A DNA stretch of 35,292 nt from a bacterium (GTDB lineage: Bacteria > Patescibacteriota > Minisyncoccia > Minisyncoccales > CG1-02-41-26): positions 1-35,292 of the forward strand of contig JAUSHZ010000004.1 in assembly GCA_030648255.1 (NCBI GenBank), read 5' to 3'. A program made the position numbers and the translations under genes. Within the stretch, counting starts at the first letter, position 1. Every line of letters begins with the position of its first letter. Shown piece by piece: positions 2,611 through 35,292 of this stretch. The notes under the pieces were generated by a model. The model was not told the DNA's origin. It saw only the letters and a program-made list of their open reading frames with translations, and ran no database searches.

Positions 2611-3417
2611 TCAACATACTCTGTCAGGATTCTTTATCTTTGTGCCTACTGGAAAACCCTTAACAAACTTTATAATAATATCCTCATCCTTGCCAGCAAC
2701 CGCTACTTTCTTCCCAGCCTGAGCACATTGAAATGCTGCTTTGAGTTTGGTTTTTATGCCACCAGATCCTCCTGTTGAGTTATGACCATTGTCTAAAAAC
2801 TCTAAACCAGCTTCACAGTCTATTTCCTCATAAATCTCTGCTTTTAAACTTTCCTGCGAATCTTCTTTGTAAATTCCTTTCACACTTGTAATAAACAACA
2901 CCGCATCCGCTTCCACGAGGGTAGCAATCCGCCATGCCAAATTATCATTTTCGCTAATGCCCTCGTCCATCCATCTTATTTCCTCGTCAGAAAGGACATC
3001 ATTTTCATTGATTATAGGAATGACCCCGTTCTCTAAATAACATATAGTGCTATCTTTCGTACTTTTCCGTTCGCCATTGTGCGCAAGGCTGGCATATGTA
3101 ACCCAAATCTGAGCAACCTCTTTTCCATATATCTCAAACGCTCTGCCCCATTCGTTCATTAAATGCCTTGCACCTATCCCTGCGATCTGCTTTTTCTCCA
3201 TGTGTACAGTTTCAAGTCGTAGCTCATCCATCCTTTCCGCACCAGCCCTAATGGCGCCCGAACTTACTATTGCCACCCCTATACCAAACTGTTGTACCGC
3301 TATAATCTGCCTAGCAAAATCATTAAAGATCTTCTGACTTAACCTACCATTTTCACCCGAGAGACTTTCTGTGCCAAATTTTACCACCAATCTAGAGACC
3401 GCTTTTAGTTTACACAT
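2611..3417 (-). CDS. proB: Glutamate 5-kinase (proline biosynthesis)
   Basis: 268 residues, the length of an amino-acid-kinase domain without the C-terminal PUA domain of longer ProB proteins. VVKFGTESLS (11-20) is the phosphate-binding start, SSGAIRAG follows, then QIAGIGARHLM, NENDVLSDEE (substrate region), DNLAWRIA, and the nucleotide-binding end SGGIKTKLKAA near residue 220. It makes gamma-glutamyl phosphate from glutamate and ATP. Normal partners ProA and ProC are absent from the window. The ATG at 3417 is preceded by a strong Shine-Dalgarno (AAGGAGG, 7-nt spacing), unlike most genes here. The long upstream leader is a T-box with a proline specifier, so expression should rise when tRNA-Pro is uncharged. 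The leader and base composition suggest acquisition from a Firmicute-like source; that is inference. Confidence 0.88.
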   Translation of the reverse strand: MCKLKAVSRLVVKFGTESLSGENGRLSQKIFNDFARQIIAVQQFGIGVAIVSSGAIRAGAERMDELRLETVHMEKKQIAGIGARHLMNEWGRAFEIYGKEVAQIWVTYASLAHNGERKSTKDSTICYLENGVIPIINENDVLSDEEIRWMDEGISENDNLAWRIATLVEADAVLFITSVKGIYKEDSQESLKAEIYEEIDCEAGLEFLDNGHNSTGGSGGIKTKLKAAFQCAQAGKKVAVAGKDEDIIIKFVKGFPVGTKIKNPDRVC

Positions 3418-3424
3418 TTCATTG

Positions 3425-3735
3425 CCTCCTTATTTCTAAATAATTCAAAATAAATAAAAACTCTTTCGCTCTTACTTCTTCTTTTTAAAGAACAAATAAG
3501 GACGAAAGAGTTCTTCCGTGGTACCACCTTAATTTGTTTTAGTTTTATCTAAAACCTTAACATCCTGCAAACACAGGATTACTGGAAGATAACGGCCAGT
3601 TGCCGAGCAAAGTTATTAGCCCTGCCATCTGTTAAGAGTAGGTTCAAGAAAAGCATTGACATGGGCTTCCAGCCTAAGGCCCATTTCTCTTTAGTCGTGG
3701 CTTTTATTTACTATTCTCTTGTCATTGATTTTAAT
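3425..3735 (-). promoter_or_regulatory. T-box leader (riboswitch), proline specifier, controlling proB
   Basis: Read on the minus strand. The T-box consensus AAGGTGGTACCACG is at 3517-3530. Stem I runs about 3634-3720, closed by AAGAG/CTCTT, with the AGUA/GAA S-turn. Immediately after GAA comes CCT (3640-3642) followed by A, giving a Pro specifier. The distal stem I has GAC/GUC and AUGGGC/GCCCAU helices with an AG-type bulge. Stem III is ATCCTG/CAGGAT near 3563-3580. The terminator is a 10-bp stem (3503-3512 with 3459-3468) followed by TTTATTTATT. Uncharged tRNA-Pro should stabilise the antiterminator and allow proB transcription. Confidence 0.9.
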
Positions 3736-32626: not shown

Positions 32627-33250
32627 TTAAACCACCCCAGCAGCTTGATGTTCTTTTTTAGCTTTTGCATTTTTATCAATCTTTTTAAAGTTGGCCACAA
32701 TGTTCCATTTTATTTTTCGCGAGTTTATTTGTTGAAAATCAATCTTTTCCAAACATTCTTTTAGCTCATCTTGATAAAAAGCATAGTGCGGTATATCTTT
32801 TTCATCACCTGACAATTTAATAAAAGTTTGGGGAGCTATCATTTTATATTGCATTTTACCAAACTCTAAATCTTGCTCCTCATACAAGCTCTCCCCTATT
32901 TGCTTAAAGTTCAACTGTTCAAAATCAGAAATTTTAATTGAAAAAATACCATTTACTTTAAGCACCCGATAAATTTCCTTAAAAACATTCTCAATTTTAT
33001 TTTTTAAATTATGGTTAATACACTGCCAAGAATAAACAGCATCAAAGCTTTCGTTTTCAAAGGGCAACGCTTTTTCAAAAATTAGCTCTTCAATACCAGT
33101 AGTATCATACCCCAATTCTCTCAAGGCAACTAAATTACGGCCATCCCCACAAAAAACCTCTAAGATGTTTTTAATCTTAAATTTCTTAAACAGCTTCAAC
33201 TCTTCTTCTGTTAAACTTATTCTAAAATCATGAGGACTTTGTTTTTTCAT
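32627..33250 (-). CDS. Class I SAM-dependent methyltransferase
   Basis: 207 residues. Motif I LEVFCGDGRNL (30-40) binds SAM, FDAVYSWQCINH matches motif II/III, and EIYRVLKVNGIFSIK motif IV/V. It is a type-11-like small-molecule methyltransferase; the substrate is unknown. The ATG (33250) lies only 16 bp from the -10 box of the divergent tRNA-like RNA gene, so the two promoters may interfere. Confidence 0.85.
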   Translation of the reverse strand: MKKQSPHDFRISLTEEELKLFKKFKIKNILEVFCGDGRNLVALRELGYDTTGIEELIFEKALPFENESFDAVYSWQCINHNLKNKIENVFKEIYRVLKVNGIFSIKISDFEQLNFKQIGESLYEEQDLEFGKMQYKMIAPQTFIKLSGDEKDIPHYAFYQDELKECLEKIDFQQINSRKIKWNIVANFKKIDKNAKAKKEHQAAGVV

Positions 33251-33263
33251 TTATTTCAAAAAT

Positions 33264-33271
33264 GTTATAAT
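33264..33271 (+). promoter_or_regulatory. Extended -10 promoter of tRNA-like RNA copy 1
   Basis: TGTTATAAT spans 33263-33271, with TATAAT at 33266-33271. The TG-N-TATAAT form can work without a -35. The block from TTTTTCATTT through the -10 to the RNA start is nearly identical to that of copy 2. Confidence 0.7.
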
Positions 33272-33282
33272 GGAATTGTGTT

Positions 33283-33350
33283 GGGGGTGGCTTGGTGTAG
33301 GTTCTGGCTTATCATCCAAGGACTTGGGGGTTCGATTCCCCTCACCTCCA
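33283..33350 (+). ncRNA. tRNA-like small RNA, copy 1 (68 nt)
   Basis: The acceptor GGGGGTG (nt 1-7) pairs with CACCTCC (61-67), with G3:U70-type wobble and discriminator A. The T arm is GGGGG-TTCGATT-CCCCT, canonical. The 36 nt between are too few for normal D and anticodon arms. Two folds fit. (a) A 6-bp stem 17-22/38-43, a bulged A37, a 3-bp stem 23-25/34-36, and loop CUUAUCAU. (b) A truncated D hairpin 8-12/16-20 plus a poor anticodon arm. CCA is not encoded. TTTTTT follows 4 nt after the end. Compared with copy 2 the frame is conserved and the interior differs with compensatory changes. Function unknown; G3:U70 suggests it could be charged with alanine (inference). Confidence 0.7.
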
Positions 33351-33370
33351 ATGCTTTTTTAAAACTGCCC

Positions 33371-33399
33371 TTGACAAATGAAAATAAAAATAATATAAT
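33371..33399 (+). promoter_or_regulatory. Perfect consensus promoter of the antisense small RNA
   Basis: TTGACA (33371-33376) and TATAAT (33394-33399) with 17-nt spacing: all 12 consensus bases match. It points away from copy 1 and toward the NUDIX 3' end. Confidence 0.85.
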
Positions 33400-33405
33400 T
33401 GGCTT

Positions 33406-33475
33406 AATTGGATGATAAGCCAGTTTCTTGTACCAGGTTAATTCCTGCAAAACCCGCCGCAAGGCGGTGTTTTTG
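33406..33475 (+). ncRNA. Small RNA with 16-nt antisense to the tRNA-like RNA
   Basis: Predicted start is about 33406, 7 nt after the -10 box. TTGGATGATAAGCCAG (33408-33423) is the exact reverse complement of 33304-33319, which is nt 22-37 of tRNA-like copy 1. A hairpin CAGG-TTAATT-CCTG (33434-33447) follows, then the terminator. It contains no start codon with a plausible frame. Expected length about 70 nt. The antisense stretch is at the extreme 5' end, free of stable internal stems, which favours pairing. Confidence 0.65.
33449..33475. terminator. Intrinsic terminator, usable on both strands
   Basis: CCGCC-GCAA-GGCGG (33454-33467) with flanking AAAAC/GTTTT pairing. TGTTTTTG follows on the plus strand. 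On the minus strand GGGTTTTGC follows, so it can also end the NUDIX gene transcript. Confidence 0.8.
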
Positions 33476-33484
33476 TTTAAAATT

Positions 33485-34018
33485 TTATAAATAAAAATTC
33501 TCTAAAAAGTTTAGGGCTGTTATGTTGGTGGGAGCTGTAACTATTTTTCGCACTTCCTCTAAGGATAGCCACTTAGTGTCGTGAAATTCTGTAAAGTCAA
33601 CATTAAAATTGCTTCCATCCGTAACCATTAAATACCAAATATCGTAATGAATTTTGCAACCCTGAGTGTTGTTGTTAATTCTCGTAACTGTTAATAAAAA
33701 CGGGTTGGGGGCTTCTTGAAAATAATCTTTAACGCCCACCTCTTCCCAAATTTCTCTGTTTATAGTTTGCCACAAAACCTCTCCCCTATCAACATGCCCA
33801 CCCGGCGCTATCCAAAGCCCAGCTTTTTTATGATGTACTAAAAATAATTCCTTAGTTTCAGGATTAAAGGGCAAAAAGAAAGTGCCAAAATGCGTTAAGG
33901 CATTTTCATCTCTAGTCAAACTCCCCTCCTCCAGTCGTTGCTGAAATTCCCGATAAGTCTCCTCACTATCGCAAACCCCCCGCTTTAAAATTTTTGTAAT
34001 GTCTTGATATAAGTCCAT
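33485..34018 (-). CDS. NUDIX hydrolase
   Basis: From the ATG at 34018 (MDLYQDITKILKRG) it has 177 residues; a frame to 34057 overlaps the kinase gene by 23 bp and is less likely. The Nudix box GGHVDRGEVLWQTINREIWEEVG fits Gx5Ex7REUxEExGU exactly (split: GGHVDRGE, then REIWEEVG). LVHHKKAGLWIAPGGH precedes it. The N-terminal ~45 residues are helical and acidic. Substrate unknown. It probably follows the APH kinase in the same transcript. Confidence 0.85.
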   Translation of the reverse strand: MDLYQDITKILKRGVCDSEETYREFQQRLEEGSLTRDENALTHFGTFFLPFNPETKELFLVHHKKAGLWIAPGGHVDRGEVLWQTINREIWEEVGVKDYFQEAPNPFLLTVTRINNNTQGCKIHYDIWYLMVTDGSNFNVDFTEFHDTKWLSLEEVRKIVTAPTNITALNFLENFYL

Positions 34019-34034
34019 AAAATTTACACTGGTC

Positions 34035-35030
34035 TTACCTGCGCAAACATAACGCACTCAAAAATAGATCCAAAATAAGTCCTTTTTCTACTTCTGCGTA
34101 GTTTATTTCTTCAGATATATTAACATAAAGGAGGCAAATTAAAGTTAAATTTCTCATTCTCAAAAACAAATTTAAAAATTTATATTCTTCCTCTATAATA
34201 TTTCTTATTTTTTGATAACTCTCAAAATAATTGCTCAATATTTTTTCGTAATCCTCTTTTTTATTTTTAAATAACCACCACCAAATTGAATTTGCGGTGT
34301 CTAAAACAAAAGGCTGGTTAGAAATATCGTCAAAATCCAAAATAGCTTTTATTTTGCCATTATCAACAATTATATTGTCGCTATCATAGTCTAAATGAAC
34401 ATCGCCACAAGGCAAAGCCAATATGCCGTCAAAATTTAATTCAATGTTTCTTTTCAAGTCACTATGTATCTCCTCTACTTTGCCAAATATTTCTTTAGTT
34501 AATTCTTTTGCTTTTATTTCGTTAAATTCTTTATCCATCCAGTCAACCATAGTTTTGAAATTTGACCTTTCCAAATTTTTATTTAGCCCGCTTGAAACTA
34601 AATGCATTTTTGCTTGATATGTCGCAAACTCTGGAATTATTTCAAAATCATTTGATTCAAGATGTCTTCCTTCTGCAAAGGTCATAATAATGGCTCTCCA
34701 TTCCATGCCAGCAGAATCTTTAAAAACCGTTAATTTTTTATCAAAAATATTAGCTATAACTAACGGAACAGGAACGCCAGATATTCTCATTTCCTCCATA
34801 AAATTCAACTCATTCTCAATGGCGTCGTTGCTTTTATCGCCATTTTGATAAACCCTCAACACCAACTTAGACCCGTCCTCTATTTTAAGACAAAAAGACG
34901 TATTTATTATTCCACCCTTAAAACATTGAACATCTAAAACGCTTAGCTTGTACAAATCAAACACCTCAACTAACTCTTCTTTAGACCCATCAAATTTTAT
35001 GTCCTTTTCTAGTTGCATGATATTTTTCAT
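34035..35030 (-). CDS. APH-family phosphotransferase (homoserine-kinase-II-like)
   Basis: 331 residues from the ATG at 35030 (MKNIMQLEKD); an in-frame ATG at 35018 and a TTG at 35039 are alternatives. FKGGIINTSFCLK is a Gly-rich loop as in ThrB-II/CotS kinases, LVLRVY the N-lobe Lys region. CGDVHLDYDSDN (208-219) is the catalytic loop, ILDFDD (230-235) the metal site. The form with 'GGI.NT.f' resembles homoserine kinase II/aminotransferase-associated kinases. No threonine genes are nearby. Its start is about 16 bp from the -10 box of tRNA-like copy 2, divergently arranged exactly as the methyltransferase and copy 1. Confidence 0.78.
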   Translation of the reverse strand: MKNIMQLEKDIKFDGSKEELVEVFDLYKLSVLDVQCFKGGIINTSFCLKIEDGSKLVLRVYQNGDKSNDAIENELNFMEEMRISGVPVPLVIANIFDKKLTVFKDSAGMEWRAIIMTFAEGRHLESNDFEIIPEFATYQAKMHLVSSGLNKNLERSNFKTMVDWMDKEFNEIKAKELTKEIFGKVEEIHSDLKRNIELNFDGILALPCGDVHLDYDSDNIIVDNGKIKAILDFDDISNQPFVLDTANSIWWWLFKNKKEDYEKILSNYFESYQKIRNIIEEEYKFLNLFLRMRNLTLICLLYVNISEEINYAEVEKGLILDLFLSALCLRR

Positions 35031-35042
35031 TTTTTCCAAAGA

Positions 35043-35051
35043 TGTTATAAT
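35043..35051 (+). promoter_or_regulatory. Extended -10 promoter of tRNA-like RNA copy 2
   Basis: TGTTATAAT with TATAAT at 35046-35051, identical in sequence and distance to the RNA start as in copy 1. Predicted leader about 5 nt. Confidence 0.7.
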
Positions 35052-35062
35052 GGAATTGTGTT

Positions 35063-35130
35063 GGGGGTGGCTTGGCGCAAGCCCCAGGTTGCCACTTGAG
35101 GGCTTGGGGGTTCGATTCCCCCTACCTCCA
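35063..35130 (+). ncRNA. tRNA-like small RNA, copy 2 (68 nt)
   Basis: The first 13 nt match copy 1 exactly. The acceptor is GGGGGTG/TACCTCC with discriminator A, again with the third pair G:U. The T arm is GGGGG-TTCGATT-CCCCC. Interior stem 17-22/38-43 is AAGCCC/GGGCTT; relative to copy 1, pair 20-40 changes from U-A to C-G. Upper stem pairs 23-36 and 24-35 also change compensatorily. The loop is GUUGCCAC. An alternative 6-bp hairpin GGCUUG/CAAGCC (nt 7-12/16-21) competes. No complementary small RNA follows within the window. Confidence 0.7.
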
Positions 35131-35181
35131 GCATATTTATTTTATCCACAAAAAAGTGTTTTAGATACAAACATTTTGCAC

Positions 35182-35292
35182 TCAGAATAATCTAAGAGCT
35201 TGATTTGGCGTTTTACCATTTAAACTACAATGTTTGGTGTCGTTGTAATACATATTCCATAATCTTATCTTGTATTTTAAATCTTCAAAAGA
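35182..35292 (-). pseudogene. C-terminal fragment of an IS3/IS481-like transposase (cut by window edge)
   Basis: Minus-strand frame open at the right edge, 36 residues then TGA. It reads LWNMYYNDTKHCSLNGKTPNQAL, split here as WNMYYND and SLNGKTPNQAL. This is the C-terminal integrase-core signature (YN..R.H..LNGKTP.E.L) of IS3/IS481-type transposases. The rest is outside the window, so it may be complete in the genome. The 51-bp gap to tRNA-like copy 2 should contain the IS end, but I could not identify the terminal repeat. Confidence 0.78.

Follow-up and report, generated by a model that had tools for sequence, protein, structure and literature searches.

The 35,292-nucleotide stretch of patescibacterial DNA analysed here (the window) contains two copies, A1 and A2, of a small RNA (RNA-A) that is very probably a tRNA mimic chargeable by alanyl-tRNA synthetase (AlaRS) and paired with a cognate antisense RNA (RNA-B). 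This judgement concerns the anatomy alone. The fuller statement, that a tRNA-Ala mimic is held by its antisense RNA in an RNA-only toxin-antitoxin-like (type VIII-like) or addiction module, stands evenly between acceptance and doubt. Comparison of related loci shows the predicted fold of RNA-A, its CCA behaviour and its cognate pairing with RNA-B at two points. Judging by the model matches, the RNA-A family is present in scattered genomes across the phylum Patescibacteria. The features of the window are listed in Table 1.

Table 1. Coordinates of the A–B modules and of other features in the window.
Feature	Position	Strand	Remarks
RNA-A1 promoter	33244..33271	+	TTTTCA-16-TATAAT, extended -10 (TG); 10/12 matches
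RNA-A1	33279..33353	+	tRNA-like; G1 to A73 = 33283-33350; 24/24 pairs formed, covariation in homologues
A1 anticodon-like arm	stem 33299-33304 / 33320-33325; loop 33305..33319	+	15-nt loop
A1 segment complementary to RNA-B1	33304..33319	+	16 nt, 100% complementary to 33408-33423 (inverted repeat)
RNA-B1 promoter	33371..33399	+	TTGACA-17-TATAAT, 12/12
RNA-B1	33406..33475 (ends approximate)	+	47.8 bits with the B model
RNA-B1 5' loop complement	33408-33423	+	
RNA-B1 D-arm complement	33427-33437	+	complementary to A1 D arm
RNA-B1 terminator	33454-33469	+	hairpin, followed by T run
NUDIX (PF00293) and APH-type phosphotransferase (PF01636) genes	33485-35039	-	between the modules
RNA-A2 promoter	35024..35051	+	TTTTCA-16-TATAAT, extended -10
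RNA-A2	35059..35133	+	G1 to A73 = 35063-35130; partner B2 on another contig (G000:C8:146-246)
DnaA-box-like TTATCCACA	35142..35150	+	between A2 and IS
Transposase C-terminal piece (apparent IS)	35182..35292	-	contig end, between A2 and B2; open frame
T-box leader	3495-3734	-	98.4 bits; upstream of gene 2611-3417
Gene reading as glutamate 5-kinase (by eye)	2611-3417		

A sequence-only reading of this DNA had described A1 and A2 as twin RNAs with a constant frame and a variable interior, and this description holds. Each is 68 nt long and begins with the same 13 nt. The two are unlike at 17 of 68 sites, 15 of them within positions 14–40 and two at 60–61; the T arms show no differences and the acceptors are unlike in one pair, G7:C66 against G7:U66. 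With the promoters included, the repeat spans 108 nt at 81% identity (33243–33350 and 35023–35130), and a blastn search of the source genome (846,593 bases in 33 contigs) returned just A1 and A2 as full-length RNA-A. The anticodon-like arm has a 6-bp stem and a 15-nt loop in both copies, unlike the 7-nt loop on a 5-bp stem of tRNA, and its loop measures 13–16 nt in the family. An extended -10 element (TGnTAnnnT) precedes 53 of 86 RNA-A genes. In A1 and A2 the acceptor helix continues for 4 bp past A73, with covariation; this extension, the partner RNA and the 16-nt complementarity between A1 and its partner go beyond what that reading had noticed. ARAGORN found 0 tRNA genes in the whole window, and Rfam at gathering cut-offs gave no match at A1 or A2, the tRNA model (RF00005) included, with one T-box elsewhere in the window. 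Against the tmRNA model (RF00023) the copies scored 29.0 and 24.8 bits, below the gathering threshold of 47, in alignments to the model ends only that skipped about 300 model positions. Scores typical of ordinary tRNAs would have spoken against the earlier reading, and both copies lie below the Rfam tRNA and tmRNA cut-offs.

Homologues of the two RNAs were obtained from related genomes. A blastn search over 147 relatives gave three clear homologues (in G065, G001 and G093), and all 24 proposed pairs form in five of five sequences when these are aligned with A1 and A2. Both sides are changed in 10 pairs of this alignment, a number reached in 0 of 500 shuffles. A covariance-model search, which had been proposed as a check, detected many further copies. 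The first model (R1) recovered at least 23 RNA-A sequences from at least 17 genomes among 247 of the order, with G3:U70 in 23/23; in their alignment 97.6% of cells are paired and the covariation score is 0.716, compared with 0.227 for shuffled alignments and 0.09–0.12 for slid controls. The rebuilt model (R2) at E ≤ 1e-6 placed RNA-A in at least 17 of the 247 genomes searched for the order, at least 34 of the 383 for the class and at least 29 of the 379 for the phylum. These genome samples overlap and the tallies are lower bounds, as a search of more than 40 genomes scored only the best candidates; the class tally includes three genomes with just an ordinary tRNA-Ala (L182, L189, L190) and the phylum tally two (L151, L152). 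From 93 model matches 87 RNA-A were kept, after removal of these five, which ARAGORN calls tRNA-Ala, and of L185, whose partner was not convincing; L146 was retained for its partner, though ARAGORN reports an Arg tRNA. The model was built on sequences with G3:U70, so other identities are under-sampled. Neither RNA has a counterpart in Rfam 15, and a literature search with most subscription journals outside its reach gave nothing on RNAs of this kind; four tRNA-like terms sought in PMC2864571 are absent from it.

The acceptor stem, T arm, D-loop/T-loop elbow and CCA end of RNA-A all agree with those of tRNA. Among the 87 sequences, G3:U70 and A73 are each present in 82 and G1:C72 in 86, and acceptor pairs 4–7 vary widely in type (at pair 4, GC in 48 and CG in 33; at pair 6, TA in 48 and CG in 26). 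Retention of the predicted alanine identity is thereby shown by comparison. Two of the five exceptions are badly aligned, and the other three have G1:C72, C2:G71 and C3:G70 with U73, which we take to be a glycine-like identity. Candidate partner RNAs of the same design accompany the glycine-type variants L143, L186 and L191 (perhaps also L188 and L156:2481-2555), the candidate of L186 being weak (p = 0.13). In the elbow, D-loop GG occurs with T-loop TTC or TCC in 54 of 84 classified sequences and AG with TGC in 27; GG was seen by eye in the three apparent exceptions and in three unclassified rows, so none of the six contradicts the rule.

The 3' end follows the habit of the host. CCA is encoded by 12 of 13 RNA-A in genomes with CCA-encoding tRNAs and by 0 of 13 in the others (p = 2.7e-6, a value that overstates independence because the members are related), the sole exception being L131 in G869. 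The comparison covered 20 genomes, with ordinary tRNAs taken from the loci examined (1–7 per genome), and its non-CCA group includes two genomes with minority CCA tRNAs (G718, 1/4; G913, 1/3). Past A73, and with -1:73 taken as the first pair, the acceptor helix gains a median of 5 pairs in non-CCA genomes and of 2 in CCA genomes. Since the helix runs on in the former, processing would be needed there for mature RNA-A ends; the extension itself might, as a guess, be a terminator or a protecting clamp. The earlier proposal of a tRNA-Ala mimic without a usable anticodon is well supported by this comparison, given the retained G3:U70 and A73, the CCA rule and the lack of any ARAGORN call in the window.

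A candidate partner RNA, promoter included, is located downstream of A1 at 33371–33475. The first three homologues show the arrangement seen at A1–B1, and the complement in B shifts along with the loop of A. A partner was found within 300 nt of 85 of the 87 RNA-A, and for 81 of them it reached p ≤ 0.05 when compared with shuffled loops; A2 and L162 are the two without one. The layouts comprise 69 tandem, six divergent and eight convergent pairs and two on the same strand with B upstream. Where the loop measures 15 nt (53 pairs), its positions 2–12 are Watson-Crick paired in 44–53 of 53, with two to four pair types at each position. Loop pairing is far stronger in cognate than in permuted pairs (-21.9 versus -8.9 kcal/mol; 0 of 2000 permutations), as is the contact of B with the D arm (-13.5 versus -8.8 kcal/mol; 0 of 2000 permutations; 85 pairs), L080 being excluded from the energy test because the contig end cuts its B. 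A promoter with a score of at least 9/12 lies ahead of 79 of 83 RNA-B, compared with 105 of 1720 random windows. Since complementarity served to locate RNA-B, selection inflates the loop energies; the D-arm contact and the promoter score played no part in choosing B, and these tests carry more weight. The family with exchangeable interiors proposed earlier is thus half right: the interior varies, but each is locked to its cognate antisense RNA and is not freely exchangeable, because it pairs with this second small RNA.

Other accounts of RNA-B and of the loop were tried and rejected. As a conserved small ORF, RNA-B would have 9–10 codons in three of the first four loci by eye, and the rest do not share it; as a T-box or riboswitch it has Rfam matches at chance level only. 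A role of the A loop as an anti-Shine-Dalgarno mimic was set aside, as many loops, inspected by eye, have no such sequence. No protein family was found to recur beside the A–B loci, the most widespread cluster being present at 6 of 55.

The contig ends before any partner of A2, in an apparent transposase fragment with what is presumably an IS3-type ending. From the A–B rule, an RNA with the complement of the A2 loop was predicted in the same genome and was then found. The exact 14-mer complement has one site outside A2, at C8:183-196, 183 bases from the contig start, in a region (B2) with TTGACA, TATAAT, a D-arm complement and a terminator; a B model built without B2 still detects it at 40.3 bits. 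The A2/B2 pair was probably split by insertion of an IS. The 9-nt DnaA-box-like site behind A2, TTATCCACA, recurs between RNA-A and the RNA-B promoter, inverted once (L159). Its loose form occurs in 21 of 69 tandem A–B spacers versus 23 of 2506 control windows and its exact form in 10 of 69 versus 2 of 2506, an enrichment which suggests that the module may be under DnaA control.

Comparison shows cognate pairs to be mutually specific within one genome. In the 13 genomes that have more than one pair, the own B was the best B in the genome for 28 of 28 RNA-A, and in the source genome of the window the cofolding gain was -18.8 kcal/mol for A1–B1 and -19.7 kcal/mol for A2–B2, compared with -1.3 and 0.0 kcal/mol for the cross pairs. 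Loci L072 and L154 belong to different orders; they have 224 bp in common at 86% identity, from A through the terminator of B, and nothing alike beyond this unit over about 10 kb. Similarity is confined to the cassette also in L164/L160, and nearly so in L159/L160. Such comparison shows the A–B cassette to be horizontally transferred, apparently as a gene-free unit. Synteny is kept in L156/L163, L168/L167, L085/L077 and L076/L082, so vertical descent occurs beside transfer.

Decayed and incomplete loci were also found. The B model had matches at E ≤ 0.001 in at least 103 of 247 genomes, those under about 37 bits being mostly promoter-like. Four new matches were inspected: L295 and L302 are decayed A–B loci, and L304 and L305 show neither A nor B. 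In L295 the A sequence is cut short behind its D arm and joins the -10 element of B, and in L302 half of A is fused to B via the shared complement; A is destroyed in both, and B has lost some of its promoter elements too. L162 (G275:C6) has an intact A with an IS directly behind it, and its cognate B is absent from its genome as searched. The same contig has, at a distance of about 11 kb, an orphan B-like RNA (L270) that could pair imperfectly with the L162 A.

RNAs resembling A also occur outside Patescibacteria and were excluded from the RNA-A counts. All 17 (L192, L194, L195, L197, L198, L200, L203, L208–L210, L214, L218, L220, L221 and viral L222–L224) match model R2 at 47.8–69.2 bits. They come from Alphaproteobacteria (Ruegeria, Roseovarius, Maritimibacter, Bradyrhizobium), Acidimicrobiia, Acidobacteria and three IMG/VR contigs. 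Their CCA or near-CCA ends are encoded, most have a G+C-rich hairpin directly upstream (by eye), and several are near transposase-like genes. No clear partner RNA was found within 1.5 kb of the 15 examined, most scores being below the shuffled maximum; L222 equals and L224 slightly exceeds the maximum of ten shuffles, with no inspected promoter support.

Several known RNAs can be compared with these. The tRNA-like domain of tmRNA (RF00023) shares with RNA-A the G3:U70 pair, A73, the T arm, a reduced D arm and the lack of an anticodon, whereas RNA-A has no mRNA-like part (tag reading frame) or pseudoknots, is 68 nt long and has a cognate antisense RNA. A role of RNA-A as tmRNA replacement was rejected because ordinary tmRNA is present in 30 of 30 genomes tested. 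The metazoan mascRNA-menRNA (RF01684) is likewise a small tRNA-like RNA, but is not of AlaRS type and has no known partner; A2 scores 21.0 bits with its model, a chance-level value (cut-off 42.5). Type VIII toxin-antitoxin systems, of which SdsR/RyeA is one, resemble A–B in that a small RNA lies next to a second one with which it pairs. The A–B arrangement is like type VIII, and its membership would hinge on toxicity. The CreT toxin acts by sequestering a tRNA, as the relevant part of PMC8501985 describes, and has a mini-ORF, whereas RNA-A appears to be itself a tRNA mimic with an aminoacyl-tRNA synthetase identity. The CreTA antitoxin works with a CRISPR effector, and none is known to be involved with A–B, which no recurrent protein family adjoins. 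The tRNAOther of Bacillus cereus is tRNA-like and outside translation, as RNA-A would be, and is a single locus beside a genomic island; in the opening lines of the PMC3399842 abstract, no antisense partner is described.

The proposed mechanism starts from an RNA-A that would form a small L-shaped tRNA-Ala mimic with an AlaRS-type acceptor, CCA end, T arm and tiny D arm. Its overlong anticodon-like arm would exclude normal decoding. Charging by AlaRS does not need the anticodon, in keeping with an anticodon arm that has been turned into a recognition loop. RNA-A would be charged with alanine. Free RNA-A may harm or slow translation by occupying AlaRS, EF-Tu or the ribosome, and RNA-B would neutralise it. 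The 5' tail of RNA-B is predicted to bind the loop of A, and another segment to bind the D arm, by which the tRNA elbow of A would be opened. Such binding would leave the acceptor-T minihelix intact, so that B need not stop AlaRS and may act after charging. It is tentatively proposed, with some doubt, that the whole is a selfish, protein-free addiction module, in which the mimic would parasitise AlaRS and translation while the cassette of about 220 bp spreads phylum-wide and diversifies into mutually specific pairs. The destruction of A at the decayed loci speaks for the module reading; the intact A of L162 without a cognate B and the loss of B promoter elements at these decayed loci speak against it.

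Other explanations account for part of these observations. One is that RNA-A is a regulated aminoacyl donor that delivers alanine (glycine in a few variants) outside the ribosome, for instance to a lipid or a cell-wall bridge, at a level set by B. The identities found among RNA-A are alanine and glycine only, a decoding arm is lacking and non-translational tRNAs are known, cell-wall tRNA-Gly being one. Another is the tRNAOther of B. cereus (PMC3399842). The donor role is unlikely, as no transferase or cell-wall gene recurs at the loci, where the commonest protein cluster reaches just the 6 of 55 given above, and a donor needs neither patchy presence nor mutually specific paralogues. RNA-B as a regulatory sRNA that finds mRNA targets by its 5' seed, with RNA-A as decoy or sponge, would suit the position of the seed at the extreme 5' end and the strong promoter and terminator; it is rather improbable, since the G3:U70, A73, CCA and elbow retained by A are left unexplained and the seeds of B shift along with A, pair by pair. 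It is also quite improbable that A and B form one active two-piece RNA particle, at the ribosome or elsewhere. Near-constant co-occurrence, pairing at two points and the likeness of A to the tRNA domain of tmRNA (the bit scores given above) would agree with such a particle; the ordinary tmRNA in all genomes tested, the conservation of A as an RNA with a free tRNA elbow, which B would open, the several A–B arrangements with separate promoters and the A-like RNAs outside the phylum, for which no partner was found, argue against it. That RNA-A are decayed or ordinary tRNA genes is most improbable, as the tRNA-like sequence and the ARAGORN tRNA-Ala calls among weak model matches are outweighed by the lack of ARAGORN or Rfam gathering tRNA matches in the window, the strong covariation and the dedicated partner.

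If the selfish-module reading is right, the A–B cassette would be the smallest addiction-type mobile element, made of RNA only and residing in uncultured bacteria. AlaRS, the one synthetase to disregard the anticodon, would serve as the handle that leaves the anticodon arm free to become a specificity loop, and the orthogonal A–B pairs would provide a toolkit of RNA switches. Even if RNA-A is non-toxic, it would represent an Ala-type tRNA mimic with a dedicated partner, distributed phylum-wide and without a counterpart in Rfam 15 or in the literature searched.
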